The notes beneath the pieces are model-generated. The model searched no databases. It saw only the letters and a list, made by a program, of their open reading frames with translations, and was not told the DNA's origin. Shown piece after piece: positions 1 through 51,320 of a DNA stretch of 64,000 nt. The translations under genes were made by a program, and so were the position numbers. Origin of the DNA: Amycolatopsis sp. 195334CR (GTDB lineage: Bacteria; Actinomycetota; Actinomycetes; Mycobacteriales; Pseudonocardiaceae); contig NZ_JAFJMJ010000001.1 of NCBI RefSeq assembly GCF_017309385.1, forward strand, positions 3,286,001 through 3,350,000, in the 5' to 3' direction. How positions within the stretch are numbered: the first letter of the stretch is position 1; every line of letters starts with the position of its first letter.

Positions 1-2148
1 GACGGTCCCGGTGGCCTCCGGCTCCGGTTTCGACGCGGCCAGCCACGCCGTCGCCGACGGTGCCACCACGATCGGCCGGTACCGCAGCGAGCCCAGCACG
101 TTCCACGGCACCGCGTACAGCGCCCCGGTCGGCACCAGCACCGCCTCGCGGTCACCGAGGATCTCCAGCAGCGGCCGCATCAGCTGCGCGTCGAGCAGGT
201 CGGCCTCCTTGCGCGCCGACGCCGAGATCGCCTGCAGCAGCGGTTCGGCCAGGTGGTCCGGCGCCATCGCGTTCAGGTCGGCGTGCAGCCGCCGCGTCCG
301 CTCGGCGGCGTCGCGCGCCGAACCCAGCCGGACGATCCGCACCCGGCCGTCGTGCACGACCACCGCGAGCAGTTTGTCGCCGGAGGCCGCGAAGCTGATC
401 AGCACCCGGTCGCCGAGCCTGGCCGCCACGTCCTCGACGGTGGCGACCGGCCGCGGCCGTCCCCAGCGGGTCGCCGCGTGCCAGCCCAGCCGCGTCGCCG
501 CGTGCCGCAGTTCGTTGTAGCGCGCCTGCAACCCGGCCACCGGCCTGCCGTCCAGTTTGGCTTCGCGCAGCGCGTGCCCGACGTGGCGGATTTCCGCTAT
601 CGACTCGACCAGCTGCGTGTTCTCCAGCCCGGACACCTGCTCGTAGCGGTACATCTGCGCCCGCGTGCGCTCCAGCCAGTTGAACAGCTGACGCGCCTCG
701 GTGGCCGACTCACCGCCGTCGAGCACCAGCCGCATCGCCAGATCGCCGAGTTCCTGGCCGTGCAACGCGGTGCCGGAGACCAGTTCCAGCCCGCCCATGC
801 GGTCGCGTGCCTGCCCGAGTTCGGCCAGCCCGGCCCGCGCCTGCGCGAACGCCTTGCGCCGATTTCCCTGTGCCGCCGCCAGTTCCGCTTTGCACAGGCG
901 CAACAGCATGCGGTGTTCGAGCGGGGTGTGTGGTTTCGGCCGCGGCACGCGGCGCAGCAGCTCGCCCGCTTCGTCGACCCGCCCGCGACGCACTTCCAGT
1001 TGTGCCGCAAGGGTTCTCGCCAGTGCGGCGTCCTCGCCGAGGCGCAGGTCGGACAGTCGCGCGGCGAGCTGCCCCGCGGTGGACACCAGCGCCGCGGGCA
1101 CCCGGCCGCTGGACAGCGCGCGCATCGTGTGCACCCGGAGGCCGAGCAGTTCGGCGAGGGTGGCCCAGCCCTCGGTGCCGCGTCGCCGCATCCGGCGCTG
1201 CGCCGAACCCGCGAGCTGTTGCGCGGTGGGCAGATCACCTTCGAGCAGGGCCGCGGCGGCGCGGAACAACTCGGCTTCCCCGAGGTCCTGGCCGACCCGC
1301 TGGCGGCGCATCTGCGGCAGCACCTCGTCCAGGTGCCGCCCGGCCTCGACCGCCAGTCCGGCGCCGAGCAGCGCCTGCGCCTGGTCGATCCGCAGCCGGT
1401 AGAGCATGTCCGGGCCGAGTTCGAGGTAGGCGCGCTCGGCCTCGCCGTAGTGGTGCAGCGCCTGCGGCAGCCTGCCGAGCCGCTTCTCCAGGTCGCCCAG
1501 CATGTGCTGGAGGTAGGCGCTCTTCTGCGGGAAGTCGTACTCGGCGGCCAGTTCGCTCGCGTAGTCCAGGTCCTGCCTGGCTTCGGCGAGCCTGCCGAGG
1601 GTGACGAAGGTGAGCCCGCGGTTGCTCGCCGACGCGACCAGCGCCTCGGTCAGCCGTTCGCGGCTGTCGGCGGTGGCCTCGGCGACCAGGCGGCGGCGGT
1701 GCGCGATCGCCGACTCCATCAGCGGCAGGCTGGCCTCGTCGAAGCCGGCCCTGGAGAGCATGGTGCCGTGGATGTGGTCCATGAAGCCGCGGAGTTCGGT
1801 GCGGACCGGGCCCTCGGGCAGTTCGGTGAGGCGGGGGCGCACGGCGTCGAGGCGGGCGAGGCCGTCGGCGACCGTGCCGAACTCGGCTTCGGAGTAGGCG
1901 AGCCGGATCCACAGCTCGATGTGGAGCGCGAGCCAGCGGGCGCCCTCGGGGGAGATCGTCTCGAGCAGGGCGAGACCGCGCCGGAACAGGCGCATCCCCT
2001 CGCGCTCACGGCCGGCGTGCCGGATCCGCACGGCCGTCTCGTGCAGTTCGGCGACCTGGTCCAGTACCGCTTCGCGGGCACGGGAACGCCGGTGCCGCCG
2101 GGTCGCTCCGGAATCGTTAGGGGCGGCCACCCGACTATCAGACCACAT
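1..2148 (-). CDS. TPR-CHAT domain protein (C-terminus beyond window)
   Basis: An ATG at 2148 opens a frame that stays open to the left edge (716 codons, no stop), so the C-terminus is missing. About the first 560 residues are Ala/Leu/Arg-rich helical hairpins of TPR type. The visible end reads as the start of a CHAT domain (caspase-like HetF-associated peptidase fold): VLVPTGALYAVPWNVLG at about 670-686, then a VVAPSATAW strand. The catalytic His/Cys pair of CHAT domains would lie beyond the window, so activity cannot be judged. The gene lies 64 bp downstream of the tandem-repeat gene on the same strand, so co-transcription is likely. TPR-CHAT proteins of other bacteria act as regulated proteases in conflict or cell-death systems; that role here is inference. 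Confidence 0.85.
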   Translation of the reverse strand, partial: MWSDSRVAAPNDSGATRRHRRSRAREAVLDQVAELHETAVRIRHAGREREGMRLFRRGLALLETISPEGARWLALHIELWIRLAYSEAEFGTVADGLARLDAVRPRLTELPEGPVRTELRGFMDHIHGTMLSRAGFDEASLPLMESAIAHRRRLVAEATADSRERLTEALVASASNRGLTFVTLGRLAEARQDLDYASELAAEYDFPQKSAYLQHMLGDLEKRLGRLPQALHHYGEAERAYLELGPDMLYRLRIDQAQALLGAGLAVEAGRHLDEVLPQMRRQRVGQDLGEAELFRAAAALLEGDLPTAQQLAGSAQRRMRRRGTEGWATLAELLGLRVHTMRALSSGRVPAALVSTAGQLAARLSDLRLGEDAALARTLAAQLEVRRGRVDEAGELLRRVPRPKPHTPLEHRMLLRLCKAELAAAQGNRRKAFAQARAGLAELGQARDRMGGLELVSGTALHGQELGDLAMRLVLDGGESATEARQLFNWLERTRAQMYRYEQVSGLENTQLVESIAEIRHVGHALREAKLDGRPVAGLQARYNELRHAATRLGWHAATRWGRPRPVATVEDVAARLGDRVLISFAASGDKLLAVVVHDGRVRIVRLGSARDAAERTRRLHADLNAMAPDHLAEPLLQAISASARKEADLLDAQLMRPLLEILGDREAVLVPTGALYAVPWNVLGSLRYRPIVVAPSATAWLAASKPEPEATGTV

Positions 2149-2165
2149 GAGGACGCGGGACGAAG

Positions 2166-2196
2166 TCCGCCGGGCGGGGGGATCCCGCCCGGCGGA
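2166..2196 (-). promoter_or_regulatory. 13-bp perfect hairpin between repeat gene and CHAT gene
   Basis: TCCGCCGGGCGGG at 2166-2178 pairs perfectly with 2184-2196 around a 5-nt loop. It sits 16 nt after the repeat-gene stop and 18 nt before the CHAT start. No U-tract follows on the minus strand. It could be a partial terminator, an attenuator, or an mRNA structure that sets the ratio of repeat protein to CHAT protein. Confidence 0.6.
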
Positions 2197-2212
2197 AGCT
2201 ACGGCGATCGCC

Positions 2213-2659
2213 TCAGGACGCGGGGACGCTGGTGTTGCGCGGGCCCTGGGTGGTCGGGTCGGTGCTGGTGTTGCGCGGGCCGTCCGGGGTGGTGTCGGTG
2301 CTCGTGTTCCGGGGGCCCTGCGTGGTCGGGTCGGTGCTCGTGTTGCGGGGACCCTGGGTGGTCGGGTCGGTGGCGGTGTTGCGCGGACCCTGAGTGGTGG
2401 GGTCGACGCTCGTGTTGCGCGGGCCCTGCGTGGTCGGGTTCGTGCTGGTGTTGCGGGGACCCTGGGTGGTGGGGTCGACGCTGGTGTTGCGCGGGCCCTG
2501 CGTCGTCGGGTCGGTGGCGGTGTTGCGCGGGCCCTGGGTGGTCGGGTCGACGCTGGTGTTCCGGGGGCCCTGGGTGGTCGGGTCGGTGCTGGTGTTGCGC
2601 GGACCGTCCGGCGTGGTGTCGTCCGACTCCGGGGCCAACTCCTCCGTGGGCGTGCTCAT
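2213..2659 (-). CDS. small 12-residue tandem-repeat protein upstream of CHAT gene
   Basis: A 148-residue protein. The ATG at 2659 is chosen over an upstream in-frame start because GGGAGGAAACGAAG lies directly before it. Residues 1-18 are acidic (MSTPTEELAPESDDTTPD). Residues 19-138 are ten 12-residue units of consensus GPRNTS(T/V)DPTTQ, and a partial eleventh unit ends the protein in SVPAS. Almost all variation is S/A, T/V and D/N at three positions. There is no hydrophobic core, signal peptide or membrane segment, so it is probably disordered. It belongs to no family I recognise. Lying first in a probable two-gene operon with a TPR-CHAT protein, it could be a substrate, scaffold or regulator of that protein; this is inference. 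Confidence 0.8.
   Translation of the reverse strand: MSTPTEELAPESDDTTPDGPRNTSTDPTTQGPRNTSVDPTTQGPRNTATDPTTQGPRNTSVDPTTQGPRNTSTNPTTQGPRNTSVDPTTQGPRNTATDPTTQGPRNTSTDPTTQGPRNTSTDTTPDGPRNTSTDPTTQGPRNTSVPAS
2216..2605 (-). repeat. 36-bp coding tandem repeat, about 10.8 copies
   Basis: Ten 36-bp units (2246-2605) plus a partial unit encode the GPRNTS(T/V)DPTTQ repeats. The period is exactly 12 codons, with mostly synonymous or conservative differences. Copy number may vary between strains by slippage or recombination. Confidence 0.9.
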
Positions 2660-2680
2660 CTTCGTTTCCTCCCTCGTGAA

Positions 2681-2698
2681 TGCGCCGGCACCGGCGCA
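2681..2698 (-). promoter_or_regulatory. 8-bp inverted repeat in the leader of the repeat gene
   Basis: TGCGCCGG-CA-CCGGCGCA is a perfect inverted repeat 22 nt upstream of the repeat-gene start and just before its ribosome binding site. A second inverted repeat, CCAAGG-AA-CCTTGG, lies at 2767-2780. Either could be an operator or a 5'-leader hairpin; no regulator can be named. Confidence 0.35.
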
Positions 2699-2846
2699 AC
2701 CAACCTTTTCCGTACGCCGCAAGCTGATACCAAGATGCGACGCTGGGTGTCCGGATCGGGTTCCCCCCAAGGAACCTTGGCTGAAGGTACCGCACGAATG
2801 GAGGTATGGGAATTACTATGTGCGCAGGCCCTTTTCTGTATTAGTC

Positions 2847-4298
2847 CTAAAGAGTGATCCCGGTCAGTACCGTCACCTTCTCCTCGGTCAGGTCCGCCAT
2901 CGCCGCCGGAACGCCCTCACGACCGCGTCCCGAGCCCTTGACCCCGCCGTACGGCATCTGGTCCGCGCGGTAGGACGGCACGTCACCGATGATCACGCCG
3001 CCGGTCTCCAGCTCAGCGGAAGCGCGAAAAGCGAGCCCGACATCGCGGGTGAAAACCCCTGCCTGGAGCCCGTATCGAGAATCGTTCACCGCCTCGAACG
3101 CGGCGTCGGCGGAATCCACCACGGAAATCGCGAGCACCGGGCCGAACACTTCTTCCGCCCAGACCTTCGCGTCCCGCGGAACGTCGATCAGCAGCGTCGG
3201 TTCGACGGTCGCGCCGTCCCGGCCGCCACCGGCGAGCACCCGCGCGCCGCCGTCGACCGCCTCGCCGATCCAGGTAACGATTCGCTCCGCCGCCGCTTCG
3301 TCGACCACTGGCCCGACCTCGACCTCGGTGTCGTACGGGTCGCCGGTCCGCAGCGCGCGCACCGCCTCGGTCAGCGCGGGCACGAACTCGTCGGCGACCG
3401 CGCGTTCGACGATCACCCGCTGCACCGCGATGCACGACTGGCCGGCCTGGTAGTTGCCGAAGGTGGCGATCCGCCGCGCGGCCCCGGCGAGGTCCGGCCA
3501 GTCGGCCAGCACCACCGCCGCCGCGTTGCCGCCGAGTTCGAGCACCACGTGCTTGCGCGCGGCCGCGTCGGCGATCGACCAGCCGACCGGACCGGAGCCG
3601 GTGAACGACACCACCGGCAGCCGCGCATCGGCCACCAGCGCCGAGGTTTCGGCATTTCCCAGCGGCAGCACGGAAAACGCGCCGTCCGGCAGATCCGTCT
3701 CGGCCAGGATCTCGCCCAGGATCAAGGCGGACAACGGGGTGCGCGGTGCCGGTTTCACGATGATCGGCGCACCGACCGCGAGCGCCGGGGCGACCTTGTG
3801 CGCCACCAGGTTCAGCGGGAAGTTGAACGGCGCGATGCCCAGCACCGGCCCACGCGGCACGCGCCGGACGAGCGCCAGCCTGCCCTCGCCGCCCTCGTCG
3901 GTGTCCAGCCGCTGCAACTGCCCGTCGAACCGGCGTGCCTCCTCCGCGGCGATCCGGAACACCGAGATCGCCCGCCGCACCTCGACTTCCGACCACTTCA
4001 GCGGTTTGCCGTTCTCCGCGGTGATCACCTCGGCGATCTCCTCGGCGCGTTCGGCGAGCGCGCGTGAGACGTGGTCGAGCACCGCGGCGTGCTGGTGCGC
4101 CGGGCGGCGGCGGAACTCGGCGGCCACCGAGGCCGCCTTCGCCACCGCGCGCTCGACCTGCTCCGGGCCGGGCACCGCGACCGTGGCGACTTCGAGGCCG
4201 TCGAAGGGGTGCGTGACCTCCATCGTGCTCGCGCCCTGTTCGGGCAGCCCGGCGATCCAGGCGGGACGGGGTTCGGGGGTGAATGCTTCCTCGTTCAC
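2847..4298 (-). CDS. NAD(P)-dependent aldehyde dehydrogenase
   Basis: A 483-residue protein of normal aldehyde dehydrogenase length. It carries the PFNFPLN substrate/cofactor motif (157-163), the SFTGS cofactor motif (231-235), the catalytic-base motif ELGGNA with Glu254, and the nucleophile in GQSC with Cys289. It should oxidise an aldehyde to the acid with NAD(P)+ in the cytoplasm. The GTG start at 4298 overlaps the stop of the upstream alcohol dehydrogenase (GTGA), giving translational coupling. A two-step alcohol to aldehyde to acid oxidation is therefore likely; the substrate is unknown. Confidence 0.93.
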
Positions 4299-22898: not shown

Positions 22899-23580
22899 CT
22901 TCGGGGAATCAGATCTCGCGTTCGGGCTGCCGGGCGGGGGATCCCGGTGAGCAACCTCGGGGGTGGTTGCTCGGCGTCCTATTCGTGATCTGACTGTAAT
23001 GGGGACCCGGGGACAGTAACGAAGGGGCACCGCCCGGGGCAAGGCGCAGCAGCCGTGTCGGCCGAACGAGGCCGACGGGCGCGCGCACTAGCTGTGCATA
23101 TGACTAAAAGTAGACCCCTGATTACTCCGTAGGTGTGACCTGGACAACAGGCATCCACCCGTGTCCCAGGTCACAAAACCGCCCCCGCGGTCCCCTGAAG
23201 CTCCCGTTGTCCCGATTTACCCGGGTCGCGCCCGGAATAAACCGTTGCGCTCCCGCTGATGAGGGCTTTCACCCGTCCGAACTATCGGTTCTTGGTCGCA
23301 TCGGTGCAGCTCACACGCCCATTCCGCCGCCGCGCCGTATCGCCGGGCACCTGATCGCCCGCGGCCCACTGAGCCCGAACCGCTGCGAGCCCACCGAAAG
23401 TTCGCGAGCACCGCGGCGGCGCACGGGCCCCAGCCACTTCCCGTGACCACCGTGGCCGCGACATCCGTGCCCAGTGACGACCGCACCCCCGTGGCGACGG
23501 CGGCCAGTCACGACTGCGATCAGCGGCTTACGAAGCCCGTCGTCCAAGGCCCGGCCCCCAAGAAAGGACCCGGCTCCCCC
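22899..23580 (-). other. long structured upstream region of the M23 gene
   Basis: No credible gene is seen. Three perfect stems occur: 22949-22956/22965-22972 (GAGCAACC), 23057-23063/23070-23076 (GTCGGCC), and 23135-23143/23166-23174 (GTGACCTGG). A minus-strand motif TTTTAGTCATATGCA spans about 23095-23109. Rpf and M23 genes of actinobacteria often carry c-di-AMP riboswitches, but I could not find that signature here. A regulatory 5' leader is possible. Confidence 0.35.
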
Positions 23581-23625
23581 AAGAAAATGACCGGGGCCCA
23601 CCCACGAAGTGCGGGCGGACCCCGG
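23581..23625 (-). terminator. minus-strand intrinsic terminator
   Basis: On the minus strand CCGGGGTCCGCCC (23625-23613) pairs with GGGTGGGCCCCGG (23603-23591), all 13 positions paired if two G-U pairs are allowed, and TCATTTTCTT follows. On the plus strand the same arms have two mismatches. This implies a leftward transcript arriving from the repeat array. Confidence 0.6.
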
Positions 23626-23734
23626 CCATTCAGTCCCCGGTTCCCTGTGGTGGTTGTCCGCCGCCCCGCCGGCGGGCAATCCCCTGTACCGCTCCGCCCC
23701 GAAGGGAGCGATATGCCGTTGGACGCCTGACCGC

Positions 23735-24104
23735 CACCCAGGTTGCGCGCCGCCCGGATCCAAGTGCCCCGGATTCCAAGGCTGCGTCGCGCCACATCCC
23801 GAGGGTGCTTGGCGCCCCGGCTCCCAAGATCGCGTGGCGGCCGGACCCGAAGGTCGCGTGGCGCCCGGATCTCGAGGTTCCGTGCCGCCCGGGTCCCAGG
23901 GCTGCGTCGCGCCCGGACGCAAAGGGCACGGGCGCCGGATCCCAGGTTTGCGTCGCCCCCGGATCCGAGTGCCCCCGGATCCGAGTGCCCCGGACCCAAG
24001 CGGCCCCCCGGACCCAAGCGGCCCCGAACCCAAGTGGCCCCCGAACCCAGGCGGCCCCCGGACCCAAGTGGCCCCGGATCGAGGGTGCGTGGCGCCCGGC
24101 CCCG
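23735..24104. repeat. degenerate tandem repeat array (about 24-bp and 16-bp units)
   Basis: About seventeen imperfect units run up to 30 bp before the next gene. The outer ones are 23-25 bp (consensus like CCCGGATCCnAGGnTGCGTCGCG). The central seven or so are 15-18 bp (CCCGGACCCAAGCGGCC). All six frames are largely open but give only low-complexity Arg/Gly/Pro protein, so I do not call a gene. A minus-strand frame ends at 23630, right before the terminator at 23581-23625. Confidence 0.75.
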
Positions 24105-36063: not shown

Positions 36064-37065
36064 GTGCCGGTTGGTGTGACCGTTCCGGCGTCATCGGCCT
36101 CGCCCGCTCCGCTGGCGCGGCTGGCGGCGTTGCCGGGGGTCAGTACGGCGAGTGGGGTGGCGGCGGCCGCCCGGCATGCTCAGGTGACGGGAAAGGTGCT
36201 GCCCGTCCTGCCCGAGCTGGCCGGGTTGCTGCCCGCCGGTGGACTGCGACGCGGTGGCACGGTCGCGGTGCACGGCTCTCCCTCGTTATTACTGGCCCTG
36301 CTTGCCGAAGCCACCTCGCGGGGTTCCTGGGCGGCTGTGGTGGGTGTTCCCGAGCTCGGCGTTGTGGCGGCGCACGAGCTCGGGGTCGCGGTGGACCGTC
36401 TCGCGCTGGTCAACCGGCCGGGAATGGAGTTCGGCGCGGTCACGGCCGCTCTGCTGGACGGGATGGACCTGGTGGCCGTGGGCGGCGCGGGCGGTGGCGC
36501 TCGCGGTGCCGGTCCATCCCGTTCCCAGCAACTGGCACGCCGCCTTTCGGCACGGGCCCGCAACCGGGGTGCGGTCCTGCTGTCACTGGGACCTTGGCCG
36601 GGGGCCGAGGTGGAACTGACCTGCGAGGCGATCACCTGGCAGGGCTTGATGGAGTCGGGAAAGGGGTTCCTGCGAGGCGCTGATCTGAACGTGCGCACCA
36701 ACGGCCGCGGTGCCGCCGCGCGCCCGTTGCGCGCCACCGTCACCCTGCCCGCACTTCACGACGCCCACCCAGAACGCTTGGCGGAGCCAGCCCCCGCCGA
36801 GCCGCCACTGCATGCCGCTTCCGTGCAGCCTGCTTCTGCCGAGCCACCGATGCCCGCCACTTCGGTGCGGCCAGTGCCTGCCGAGCCACCGATGCAGGCT
36901 GCATCAGCGCGGCTTGCTTCTGCCGAGCCGCCGCCACATGCCGTGTCGGAGTGGTGGGGGCCGGAGCATGCCGCGCCAAGGCAGTGGGCAGCGGAACACA
37001 GCGAGCCAGAACACTGGAGCAAGCCAGAACACTGGGCCGAGCCAGTCGAGGCCGGTGTCGGATGA
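36064..37065 (+). CDS. imuA: ImuA'-like mutasome protein with repetitive tail
   Basis: A 333-residue protein. Residues 1-240 look like a degenerate RecA fold (PELAGLLPAGGLRRGGTVAVHGSPS, with no proper Walker A lysine). Residues 244-298 are four 14-residue units of the type (P/S)AEPPxxAxSxxxx, followed by an EHW/EPEHW-rich stretch. ImuA' recruits ImuB and DnaE2 for mutagenic lesion bypass. GTG 36064 follows GGAGGAGG. Its stop overlaps the imuB start (ATGA). Identity rests on context plus the RecA-like core. Confidence 0.85.
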   Translation: MPVGVTVPASSASPAPLARLAALPGVSTASGVAAAARHAQVTGKVLPVLPELAGLLPAGGLRRGGTVAVHGSPSLLLALLAEATSRGSWAAVVGVPELGVVAAHELGVAVDRLALVNRPGMEFGAVTAALLDGMDLVAVGGAGGGARGAGPSRSQQLARRLSARARNRGAVLLSLGPWPGAEVELTCEAITWQGLMESGKGFLRGADLNVRTNGRGAAARPLRATVTLPALHDAHPERLAEPAPAEPPLHAASVQPASAEPPMPATSVRPVPAEPPMQAASARLASAEPPPHAVSEWWGPEHAAPRQWAAEHSEPEHWSKPEHWAEPVEAGVG

Positions 37066-44322: not shown

Positions 44323-46668
44323 TCAGTCCACCGGCGGTTCGCCCGGGTCCAGTTCGATCAGGTCGCCCTCGTTGAGCAGGTCCTCGATCGACGCGGGCAG
44401 CAGGTACGCCGCGCCGCCACCGGGCTGGTTGAACCACGGGATGGCGATGCCGGCGAGCGCTTCGAGCGGCCGCTGCACCCGGTAGACGTGGTAGGGCCGG
44501 TTGACCCACTCCGGCACCAGCGAGCGCTCCTCGAACGGCGTGCCCGCCACGTAGGTCAGGTTGCCGTTCGGCCCGCCGAACCGGTCCAGCTCACTGCCCG
44601 CGGGCAGCTCGCGCAGCTCCTTGCCGCGGAACAGGGTCAGCGGCGGCTCACCGGCGAGCGGCTTGATCGGCCACTGCTGGCCACCCGCACCCCCGCCGCT
44701 GCCACCGGCGGCGGCATCCTCCCGGCGCGGGGCGGGCCGCTGCGGCGCGGCCGGGGCCGGGCGCGGCGGTTCGACCGGCGGCACCGGCACCTGCTGGGTC
44801 GGCGCGGGCTCCGGCGGCCGGGCGGGCGGTTCGGGCCGGGACGGCGGCGCGGGCGGCGCCACCTCCGGGGTCAGCGTGGTCATCAGGCCGGGACCGGCTT
44901 GGTCGCCGTCGAGCAGCGCACCCACCGGCGTCGGCGACTGGCGGGGCGGCGGCTGCCGGAACGGCTGCTGGGGCGGCTCCGGCGGCTCCTCGCGCACCGG
45001 GGCGACCACCTGGGTCGGCGGCGCGGGCGGCGGCTGCGGGGGTGCCTGCGGTGGCGGCGGGGGCGGTGTCGGGGGCTGCGCCGGCGGTGGCGGCTGCGGC
45101 GGGGCAGGCGGCTGGGCCTGGCTCCGCGCCTGCGGACGGCCGTTGAGCAGAAGCTTGCCGAGCATGAACGCGGCCGCGTCGTCGGCGTCGCCGAAGACCG
45201 CCGGATTGGTCAGCTCACCGTCGTACCAGCCGACCCGCCAGCCCGCGTCGATCCGCTCCAGGCTCCAGCCGTGCTCGGCGGGCTCGCCGATCCGGTACTC
45301 CTCGTCCGGGATCCGCAGCTCGTCCAGCTTGTCCTGCAGGTCGTCGAGGACCGGGTCCCCGTGCTCGACCGGCTCCGGCTCCTCGACCGGCGGCGGGCCG
45401 CCCGGCGCGATCGGGGTCATCGCGACCTGGGTGGGCGCGGCGGCGGGCACGTCCGGCTTCGGCGCCGGGGTGAACCGGGTCGCCTGGTCCGGCCCGGCGG
45501 GCACGAACTCGTCCTCGTCGTCGATGTCCACGACCTCGTGCGCACCGTGGGCCCCGGCGGGCTCGGGTTCGCTGAAGCCCTGCTCGTCGAAGCCCGGCTG
45601 GTACCCGTCCTGCGGATCCGGGTACGCGTGCGGCTCGGTCGCGTACTGGTCCTGGCTCGGCGGGGTCTTGTCGTCGTACTCGGCCTCGTACTGGTCGTCG
45701 TAGGCGGCGTCGGCGTACGACTGCTGCTGCGGCTCGTCGAACTGCTCGAACTGCGGTTCCGGCGGCGCGGCCGGGGCCGGGGGCGCGACCGGGGCGGGCG
45801 GGGCCACCGGCGGCGGGCTCGACGGCGCGCCCGGCCGCGGCGGCGGGCCGCTGCTGTGCACGTAACCCGCGGCGGCCTGCCGGGTCGCCTCCGGCACCTC
45901 GGCGACGGTGAAGTTGTGCTGGTGGATGTGGTCGATCAGGTCCTGCTCCGGCGAGACGCCGTAGGTGCGCAGGTAGTAGTTGACCGCGGCGGGCCAGATC
46001 CAGGTGCCGTCGCTGTGGAAGGCGATCGGCACGGCGGCCTCGGGCACCTCGGCCAGGCGGTCGGTGTCGTACCCGCGGCCGGGCACCACCACCGGGGCGG
46101 CGTCGAGGTAGTCGAGCAGGCGGTCCTGCTCGTCGTGCTCCAGGTCGGGACGGGTGATCACGGGGTGGCCTGCCGGATCCGTGCCGTCGAAGACCCTGGC
46201 GATGCGGAAGCGCGGGCCGGGCCGCTCCGGGCCGAGGCCGGACATCCGGCGCATCAGCCATTCGGGGATGTTCTCCTCGGCGCGCGGGAACATGCGCAGC
46301 TCGTCGGCGTAGGCCTGCGGCGGGGGCATCAGGTCCCACGTCGGCTCGTCGCGGTCGTACTCGAGGTTGTAGCTGGACGGGTGGTCGAGCTGGTAGCGGG
46401 CGTTGAACCAGGTGCCCCGGCCGTCGCGGTACATCCCGCCGCGGAGCCTGCCGAACAGGGTGGCGATGTCGTGGGTGGCCACCCACTCGCGGGAATCACC
46501 GTCGGCGGTGACGATCTCCCCGGTCAGCTCGTGGTACCGGCCCACGGCGCGATACTCGGCGGTGACACGCTGCCAGTCACGCGGGGCGGCACGCAGAAGC
46601 GCCAGCCCGATCTGCTTGACCAGGGTGTCCTGCTCGGTTGCGTTCAGCTGGGTCGTCGGTTGAGCCAC
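44323..46668 (-). CDS. large TNT-domain (NAD glycohydrolase) toxin-like protein
   Basis: A 781-residue protein. Residues 1-290 contain globular regions (DWQRVTAEYRAVGRYHELTG, reminiscent of YezG-like immunity folds; IAFHSDGTWIWPAAVNYYLR). A ~370-residue Pro/Ala/Gln/Glu-rich low-complexity region follows, interrupted by a short domain near 470-530 (GWSLERIDAGWRVGWYDGEL). The C-terminal ~110 residues match the tuberculosis necrotizing toxin family: LPAGSELDRFGGPNGN, GTPFEERSLVPEW, YHVYRV, PWFNQPGGGAAY. TNT hydrolyses NAD+. No signal peptide or adjacent immunity gene is seen. GTG 46668 is the first start compatible with the domain. Confidence 0.85.
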   Translation of the reverse strand: MAQPTTQLNATEQDTLVKQIGLALLRAAPRDWQRVTAEYRAVGRYHELTGEIVTADGDSREWVATHDIATLFGRLRGGMYRDGRGTWFNARYQLDHPSSYNLEYDRDEPTWDLMPPPQAYADELRMFPRAEENIPEWLMRRMSGLGPERPGPRFRIARVFDGTDPAGHPVITRPDLEHDEQDRLLDYLDAAPVVVPGRGYDTDRLAEVPEAAVPIAFHSDGTWIWPAAVNYYLRTYGVSPEQDLIDHIHQHNFTVAEVPEATRQAAAGYVHSSGPPPRPGAPSSPPPVAPPAPVAPPAPAAPPEPQFEQFDEPQQQSYADAAYDDQYEAEYDDKTPPSQDQYATEPHAYPDPQDGYQPGFDEQGFSEPEPAGAHGAHEVVDIDDEDEFVPAGPDQATRFTPAPKPDVPAAAPTQVAMTPIAPGGPPPVEEPEPVEHGDPVLDDLQDKLDELRIPDEEYRIGEPAEHGWSLERIDAGWRVGWYDGELTNPAVFGDADDAAAFMLGKLLLNGRPQARSQAQPPAPPQPPPPAQPPTPPPPPPQAPPQPPPAPPTQVVAPVREEPPEPPQQPFRQPPPRQSPTPVGALLDGDQAGPGLMTTLTPEVAPPAPPSRPEPPARPPEPAPTQQVPVPPVEPPRPAPAAPQRPAPRREDAAAGGSGGGAGGQQWPIKPLAGEPPLTLFRGKELRELPAGSELDRFGGPNGNLTYVAGTPFEERSLVPEWVNRPYHVYRVQRPLEALAGIAIPWFNQPGGGAAYLLPASIEDLLNEGDLIELDPGEPPVD

Positions 46669-50552: not shown

Positions 50553-51060
50553 CCCGCTCCGCTGGCCCGGGCCGCCTCGTCTACCTGCCACCCGCCCGCT
50601 TCTCGTCCACCTACGTTGCTCCGCTTCGTCGGCTTCCTTCTCGCTCGCCTAAGCCGCTCCGCTCCGCTGGCCCGGGCCCACCTCACCTACCTGCCGCCCG
50701 CCCACCCTTCCCGTCTGCCCAAGCCGCTTCACCCGCCGGGTCGCCTCATCTACTTGCGCCCGCCCGCCCACTCTGCCCACCGTGCCGCCCCGCCCTTCCC
50801 GCCTACCTAAGTTGCTCCGCCTGCCCGGGCCGCCTCGTCTACTTGCGCCCGCCCACCCACCGTGCCCGCCCTGCCCGCCCGCTCCTCCCGCCCACCTCAA
50901 GGTGCTCCGCCCGCCCTTGCCACCCACCTACGTCGCCCCGCCTGCCCTTCTCGCCCGCCCAAGCCGCTCCACCCGCCCGGGCCGCCTCACCTACCCACGC
51001 CCGCCCGCCGAGCCCGCCGGACCAGGCCCGCCTCACTGCCCGCGGGACCGGGCCCGCGTC
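50548..51060. repeat. strand-biased pyrimidine-rich imperfect repeat array
   Basis: Five longer units of about 60-90 bp begin near 50549, 50650, 50720, 50808 and 50958, with three shortened copies between. The shared core is (C/T)AAGCCGCTCC, then GCCCGGGCCGCCTC(A/G)TCTAC, then CGCCCGCC. The plus strand is strongly C/T-rich. Open frames on both strands give only low-complexity Pro/Arg or Gly/Arg protein, so no gene is called. Confidence 0.75.
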
Positions 51061-51320
51061 ACTGTCCGCGTGTGTCCGGCCGGTGAGCCCTGCCGGATCG
51101 GGCCGCCTCCGCCCAAGCTGCCCACCTCCGCCCAAAACCTGCCCGCCCGCCTGCGGCCCGCGCCCCCTGCGGCCTGCCCCTGGCCCCCTGCGGCCTGCGC
51201 CCCCTGCACCCCCTGCGGCACCCGCGCCCGTCCACTAGCCCCCTGCCGTCCGGCCCCACCCAGCTCATCCCACTCCACGCGACCCGCCCCCGAGCCACCT
51301 CCCCGGCCCACCGCGTCCCA
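51061..51320. other. gene-free C-rich continuation of the repeat region
   Basis: The 260 bp between the repeat array and the transporter terminator remain C-rich on the plus strand (CCCCTGCGGCCTGC-like runs near 51165-51225) without a clear repeat unit. I see no gene, RNA or promoter. Confidence 0.5.

Follow-up and report, generated by a model that had tools for sequence, protein, structure and literature searches.

A small, hypervariable partner gene beside the TPR-CHAT protease gene of Amycolatopsis and its relatives

Separase, a caspase-like eukaryotic protease with a helical superhelix, has a dedicated inhibitor, securin, which is small, disordered, and poorly conserved. Among bacterial proteases that join tetratricopeptide repeats (TPR) to a separase-like CHAT domain, one whose control has been elucidated is Csx29, with Csx30 as its substrate. 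According to the published account, the protease region of Csx29 resembles separases, and Csx29, Csx30 (565 aa), and CASP-sigma form a set belonging to type III-E CRISPR (Craspase) (PMC10028731). Here we describe a two-gene locus at the left end of a 64,000-nucleotide stretch of the genome of Amycolatopsis sp. 195334CR (contig NZ_JAFJMJ010000001.1, positions 3,286,001 to 3,350,000; the whole stretch is hereafter the window), where a TPR-CHAT protease gene lies directly downstream from a gene for a 148-aa repeat protein. A TPR-CHAT protease with a dedicated partner is a known kind of system; the hypervariable partner is the part that we did not find in print in the open-licence literature of PubMed Central (PMC), and among the papers listed by searches of that literature, none describes the pairing in its title or abstract opening.

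The protease gene (1..2148, minus strand) continues off the window to G000:C1:3285473, and the window covers its N-terminal 716 residues, that is, the TPR part and the start of the CHAT domain, without the catalytic residues. The complete protein in the assembly has 891 aa (L004:13473-16148, minus strand) and matches Pfam CHAT (PF12770) at residues 649-872 (E 4.3e-22; 79.3 bits against a cut-off of 24). The leftward extension proposed in the preliminary description recovered the catalytic His768 and Cys808, which do not vary in any of the 133 aligned sequences that reach 750 aa, a group that includes the window's protein (18 of 151 sequences were shorter and were omitted). By profile and catalytic dyad the protein is a CHAT peptidase, with predicted proteolytic activity. 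The small partner gene (2213..2659, minus strand) encodes an acidic, hydrophilic protein that begins with an 18-residue acidic stretch, MSTPTEELAPESDDTTPD, followed by 11 units beginning GPRNT, mostly of the form GPRNTS(T/V)DPTTQ with the core GPx6P. The array occupies 2216..2605 (minus strand), and Tandem Repeats Finder scores 2228-2602 at 491, with a period of 36 bp and 10.4 copies. The preliminary description was thus accurate in reporting a 148-residue protein of ten or more 12-mer copies, on the same strand as the TPR-CHAT gene and 64 bp from its ATG at 2148. Synonymous variation among the units exceeds nonsynonymous variation (ratio pN/pS of 0.39, 0.35, 0.77, and 0.46 in the four genomes with GPRNTS repeats), which fits a translated sequence.

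Across relatives, it is the small partner, not the repeat, that is conserved. CHAT homologues at E<=1e-30 occur in 76 of the 100 genomes searched. The close type (E<=1e-238) is present in 54 of 80 Amycolatopsis genomes, in 58 copies, with the window's genome counted; in a class-wide sample, two of 394 genomes match at E<=1e-110, both from the same family and one of them the window's own. Together with six loci from other genera of the family, the 58 copies make a set of 64 clade loci, and a small same-strand ORF (open reading frame) lies upstream of CHAT at every one (64/64; clade-like matches such as G359:C1:7409045 and G235:C6:160669 fell outside this upstream examination). GPRNTS repeats occur in four of these partners and different G-P repeats in four more, all from the other genera; 54 bear a C-x2-4-C motif and two a CCG motif. 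The GPRNTS repeats number 11 units in the window's genome, seven in G004, and five each in G100 and G107, and the CHAT proteins of the latter three genomes are 93-97% identical to the window's. The other 54 Amycolatopsis partners have 43-64 aa, begin with MSTPT or MTTTE, and carry C-x2-4-C near the end; across loci generally, most partners measure 43-77 aa and have Cys-x2-4-Cys toward the C-terminus. A scan of named genomes, taking the best 80 of 110 relatives, extended the pairing to Kibdelosporangium, Actinocrispum, Saccharothrix, Umezawaea, Lentzea, Amycolatopsis, and others, with a small ORF at 77 of the 80 loci (some have TTG starts and were recognized only by frame reading). Two of the remaining three (L196, L244) show the sister-clade layout discussed below, with its sigma factor and 160-aa protein, and the third (L253) has an S8 peptidase, identified by sequence reading. 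The expectation that a small repeat ORF would precede homologous TPR-CHAT loci therefore held for the small ORF and failed for the repeat: homologous loci that lack any repeat ORF exist, which in its literal form is one of the refuting outcomes named in the preliminary description, so the repeat is not the defining feature. The two-gene pairing itself stands, with an intact dyad and a probably disordered partner; the repeat-centered scope was too narrow.

The window's repeat protein is one lineage's version of a fast-changing partner, which probably restrains the protease or serves as its private target. Our favored reading, held tentatively and at somewhat less than even confidence, is that the small protein regulates the TPR-CHAT protease encoded next to it, as a cognate and probably disordered partner comparable with securin. 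What was computed here is the conserved pairing, the tracking of protease phylogeny by partner class, the acidic and hydrophilic composition, the intact dyad, and the modeled fold; disorder, physical binding, inhibition, and a release trigger are what we infer. The partner would be made from the gene beside the protease gene and would lie along the TPR superhelix, attached by short motifs of its C-terminal half, which are G-P-x6-P repeats in the window lineage and C-x2-4-C in others. In this way it would keep the protease inactive, or else folded and in position, until some signal takes it away. Binding at the motif is suggested, rather than cutting, because its constant positions are G, P, and a final P, not a cleavable residue. 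Dozens of natural protease-partner pairs occur in the family, and a single genome often has two paralogous ones; because the partner sequence is replaced while the protease stays recognizable, cognate recognition can be tested by swapping pairs. Such swaps would show whether bacteria have disordered, fast-evolving regulators of separase-like enzymes.

The composition of the partners is in keeping with this picture. Among 106 unique sequences, net charge averages −7 to −10 by class (−1 to −16 for single sequences) and the highest 15-residue Kyte-Doolittle hydropathy is 1.13; hydropathy profiles revealed no hydrophobic, export-signal-like segment in any of them (no signal-peptide predictor was run). 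The partners are thus acidic and hydrophilic, and they are probably disordered. Chance-level matches aside, the partners tested matched no Pfam or NCBIfam family, and the window's repeat protein has no sequence homologue at E<=0.01. An NCBIfam “collagen-like adhesin” match to the repeat protein (E 0.02; 13.5 of 500 bits) and a UBact match in the partner profile search (E 0.22) were rejected as chance, and the source name “antitoxin protein of toxin-antitoxin system” attached to a Saccharothrix partner (P0007) has no Pfam support. Eight other Amycolatopsis genomes yielded weak matches to the repeat protein (E 1e-7 to 1e-3), which were also set aside, given that the pieces around them (L133-L138, L168-L169) contain no CHAT match; four further matches lie outside these pieces.

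Two partner-linker-protease fusions were modeled with AlphaFold, one of the Kibdelosporangium repeat type (L174) and one of the Amycolatopsis Cys type (L204). In both, the protease part is folded (overall mean predicted local distance difference test, pLDDT, 73.9 and 76.9), the partner is not (about 25-37), loops that begin at the catalytic residues or shortly beyond them have low confidence, and no confident partner-protease docking or interface appears. Separase, separase-securin, and Csx29 are among the best structural matches of the C-terminal part of both models, so that the modeled protease fold resembles those of separase and Csx29. The likeness to separase-securin comprises a caspase-like protease and a helical superhelix; the differences are that separase is eukaryotic, that the genes here are bacterial and adjacent, and that inhibition is here a proposal. 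Neither separase (C50) nor securin families occur among the Pfam matches of the protease or the partners, and we know of no securin counterpart of the repeat or Cys partner classes. With Csx29, our protease shares the TPR-CHAT architecture, the dedicated partner, the fold match, and a weak Csx29 profile match on the CHAT part (E 4.7e-4); the window's protein reaches 19.1 bits against a cut-off of 300 and does not qualify as Csx29 by that model. Cyanobacterial HetF, described as a putative protease with TPR and CHAT parts (PMC8406250), is a further relative in architecture. It differs in having a transmembrane domain and in acting in division and heterocyst formation. To our knowledge, no disordered partner is encoded adjacent to HetF, which reportedly cleaves PatU3, a statement on which we found no paper.

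Partner class follows protease phylogeny. We typed 91 loci (80 from the named-genome scan and 11 more; L181, L190, and L231 were reassigned to the Cys class by eye) and found 25 with G-P-type repeats, 44 with C-x2-4-C near the C-terminus, 18 with CCG, one of another kind (Solihabitans), and three with none of these. Mapped on a 92-row CHAT tree, with Solihabitans (L232) counted in the repeat class, these classes require three changes, as few as four states allow; in 200 shuffles the number never fell below 34. The CHAT trees were quick ones, without bootstrap, and 9 of 151 and 2 of 94 rows were dropped for length. The genus members L009, L012, and L018 have the same CHAT sequences as the named Amycolatopsis loci L191, L199, and L194, respectively, which identifies the genus as Amycolatopsis. 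The CCG type consists of Lentzea and one record labeled Nocardia. At least nine genomes on the class tree combine a repeat-type with a Cys-type module; a tenth entry, Lentzea aerocolonigenes, combines two strains and was excluded. Two-module genomes, by record accession, also include Kibdelosporangium philippinense, Saccharothrix sp. S26, NRRL B-16348, and NRRL B-16314, and G100 and G107 likewise carry one module of each type. Fourteen positions separate repeat-type from Cys-type CHAT proteins (11 in residues 328-622 and three in 826-847), and they are only a lead because they also track phylogeny. CHAT pN/pS values for L007 versus L008 and L118 appear out of register and were not used. It should be noted that both CHAT modules of the record labeled Rhodococcus rhodnii NRRL B-16535 (JOAA01; L181 and L197) are placed very close to Kibdelosporangium aridum by the tree; a wrong label or contamination of the record is the probable explanation.

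The Cys motifs raise the idea that the partners are metal or redox sensors, with His- and Cys-rich forms binding zinc or copper to gate the protease and the repeat types being a metal-free version. C-x2-4-C, often with His nearby, at 44 of the 91 typed loci, CCG at 18, and His-rich stretches in several Saccharothrix and Lentzea partners agree with it. However, all 25 repeat-type partners are free of Cys, which leaves the window unexplained, and we regard this idea as very improbable.

How fast the partner changes can be seen where the locus itself has stayed in place. The window lineage is sister (support 99 in the Shimodaira-Hasegawa-like approximate likelihood ratio test, SH-aLRT) to loci of the Actinocrispum, Actinosynnema sp. 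ALI-1.44, and Kibdelosporangium type, and these loci share with it an upstream aldehyde dehydrogenase gene, 74-76% identical to the window's (2847..4298, minus strand; 483 aa read, start approximate, enzyme named by sequence reading). The shared neighbor marks all of these as a single orthologous locus. Here, CHAT proteins of the other genera are 60-64% identical to those of the window lineage and the partners only 22-37%. At this locus the repeat unit differs altogether from one lineage to the next: GPRNTSTDP; GPVHHESVP or GPVSHQTEP; GGYHHDTGP; and GTYPFDLPKP. Across genera, the constant positions are G1, mostly P2, and P9; the pattern used in the search itself sets G1 and P9. Cys-free partners from outside the window lineage contain 54 instances of G-P-x6-P, where 300 shuffles gave 6.7 +/- 2.4 and never more than 14; the test is descriptive because the motif was read from the same sequences. 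Of the 32 Cys-free proteins, seven are fragments of the sister-clade 160-aa protein that passed the filter, and the signal rests on the other 25. Other raised spacings are x2 (40, because of GPYKP units), x7 (20), and x10 (15). The weight rests on the one spacing that is kept despite different fillers in different genera. A bolder version of the regulator reading is that Pseudonocardiaceae have their own separase-securin counterpart, with a disordered acidic inhibitor-chaperone whose G-P-x6-P motif is homogenized within proteins and replaced between genera, forming a private lock and key with two insulated copies in many genomes; in this full form we think it unlikely.

We favor, with the reserve already expressed, the securin-like regulator over the possibility that the small protein is the dedicated substrate of the protease, as Csx30 is for Csx29, so that its cleavage would free or destroy a fragment acting downstream; we consider such a substrate doubtful. 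A substrate would suit a hydrophilic, probably disordered chain encoded next to the protease gene, and the window's protein has 11 Arg, one per unit, with no Lys. Across genera, however, the motif has no constant residue that would suit cleavage, and Kibdelosporangium motifs lack both Arg and Lys. The sister clade bears on this question. There, all 39 loci have the layout ECF (extracytoplasmic function) sigma factor, ~160-aa protein with a weak CarboxypepD_reg match at its C-terminus, and TPR-CHAT protein; as in the window clade, a dedicated gene lies directly upstream of a homologous protease, but its product is this ~160-aa protein, accompanied by a sigma factor, rather than a small hydrophilic partner. 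A 160-aa protein in the partner's slot beside a sigma factor resembles the Csx29-Csx30-sigma arrangement as described (PMC10028731), and two Saccharothrix Cys-type loci (L200, L224) have the order sigma, small ORF, CHAT. Two others (L190, L231) have a related sigma gene ~2 kb upstream. None of the 64 clade loci keeps the sigma factor or the 160-aa protein within 1-1.8 kb upstream, unlike the Csx29 set with its CASP-sigma, and the partners here, at 43-148 aa, are far from the 565 aa reported for Csx30 in the same source. The simplest history, with its direction inferred, is that the small partner displaced the 160-aa protein and the sigma gene was lost later. Separately, the sister loci (e.g., L147-L151, L154-L156, L160, L196, and L244), with their layout recalling Csx29-Csx30-sigma, deserve a study of their own.

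The preliminary description had placed the pair among conflict and cell-death systems, with the repeat protein as a polymeric substrate, decoy, or activator. A role as substrate, decoy, or activator is possible, although a polymer is not needed, since the partner of Umezawaea tangerina (L180) has a single full motif. One source lists CHAT domains among the effectors of bacterial conflict systems (PMC10907252), and fast divergence between genera together with near-identical units within one protein would be expected of a guard or decoy whose repeats imitate, or serve as bait for, a factor from a phage or competitor, disturbance of the partner unleashing the protease. Yet PADLOC 2.0 gives no family for either protein at E<=1, and the stable synteny with the aldehyde dehydrogenase gene and the presence of a clade member in 54 of 80 Amycolatopsis genomes are unlike mobile defense islands. 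These observations give no sign of a cell-death or defense role, and we judge a guard or decoy improbable.

Near-identical tandem units, in copy numbers of 11, 7, 5, and 5 at four loci whose CHAT proteins are 93-97% identical, could also belong to a precursor that the protease cuts into 12-mers serving as a species-specific signal. In RRNPPA systems, a small peptide gene lies near the receptor gene, and the TPR part of our models does match peptide-bound Rap, NprR, and PlcR, pheromone receptors with a TPR superhelix. LGN matches as well, as do the unrelated TSK and MalT, and because of these last two the resemblance is partly generic. The effector here is a CHAT protease rather than a phosphatase or DNA-binding domain, the partner has no hydrophobic segment able to serve as an export signal, and most relatives carry a single, nonrepeated C-terminal motif; we give a peptide signal scarcely any credence.

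The region between the two genes has conserved features of its own. A TGTGNTNTNATA element (2136..2147, minus strand) lies just 5′ of the probable CHAT start. It is present in 57 of the 62 unique regions from the 64-locus set and in 52 of 76 from the named-genome set; a palindromic TGTGATGATCACA, seen in Lentzea, replaces it in 17 of the 24 misses. The TGTGNTNTNATA element occurs in none of 39 unique sister-clade regions, and a related TGTGCTCCCATAG form is present in many of them. Because the conserved element overlaps the ATG at 2148, the true CHAT start, judged by conservation, is probably the in-frame GTG at 2128..2130 (minus strand), six codons past the ATG, making the gap 82 bp. A GC-rich hairpin with a terminator-like stem (2166..2196, minus strand) lies 3′ of the small ORF in all 14 loci folded; it has no T run in the window and a T-rich tail in several relatives, and its z of −3.2 comes from a shuffle control on the window's locus only. 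A consensus scan of window positions 2000-3000 found no terminator and no sigma-70 promoter. With the hairpin and the TGTGNTNTNATA element between them, the small gene and the CHAT gene may be transcribed separately.

The gene 3′ of the TPR-CHAT gene is convergent (a glucose-methanol-choline, GMC-type, oxidoreductase by sequence reading), so there is no third same-strand gene after the protease gene. Elsewhere in the genome, a third CHAT gene is present at G000:C1:386218-387135 (L003, L006; E 2.1e-10). The window also contains repeats apart from the partner gene: C-rich tandem arrays with units of 16-89 bp at 23546-24075 and 50696-51070, and a 42-bp tandem repeat and a G-rich 36-bp repeat at 36796-36933 and 45009-45120, respectively.
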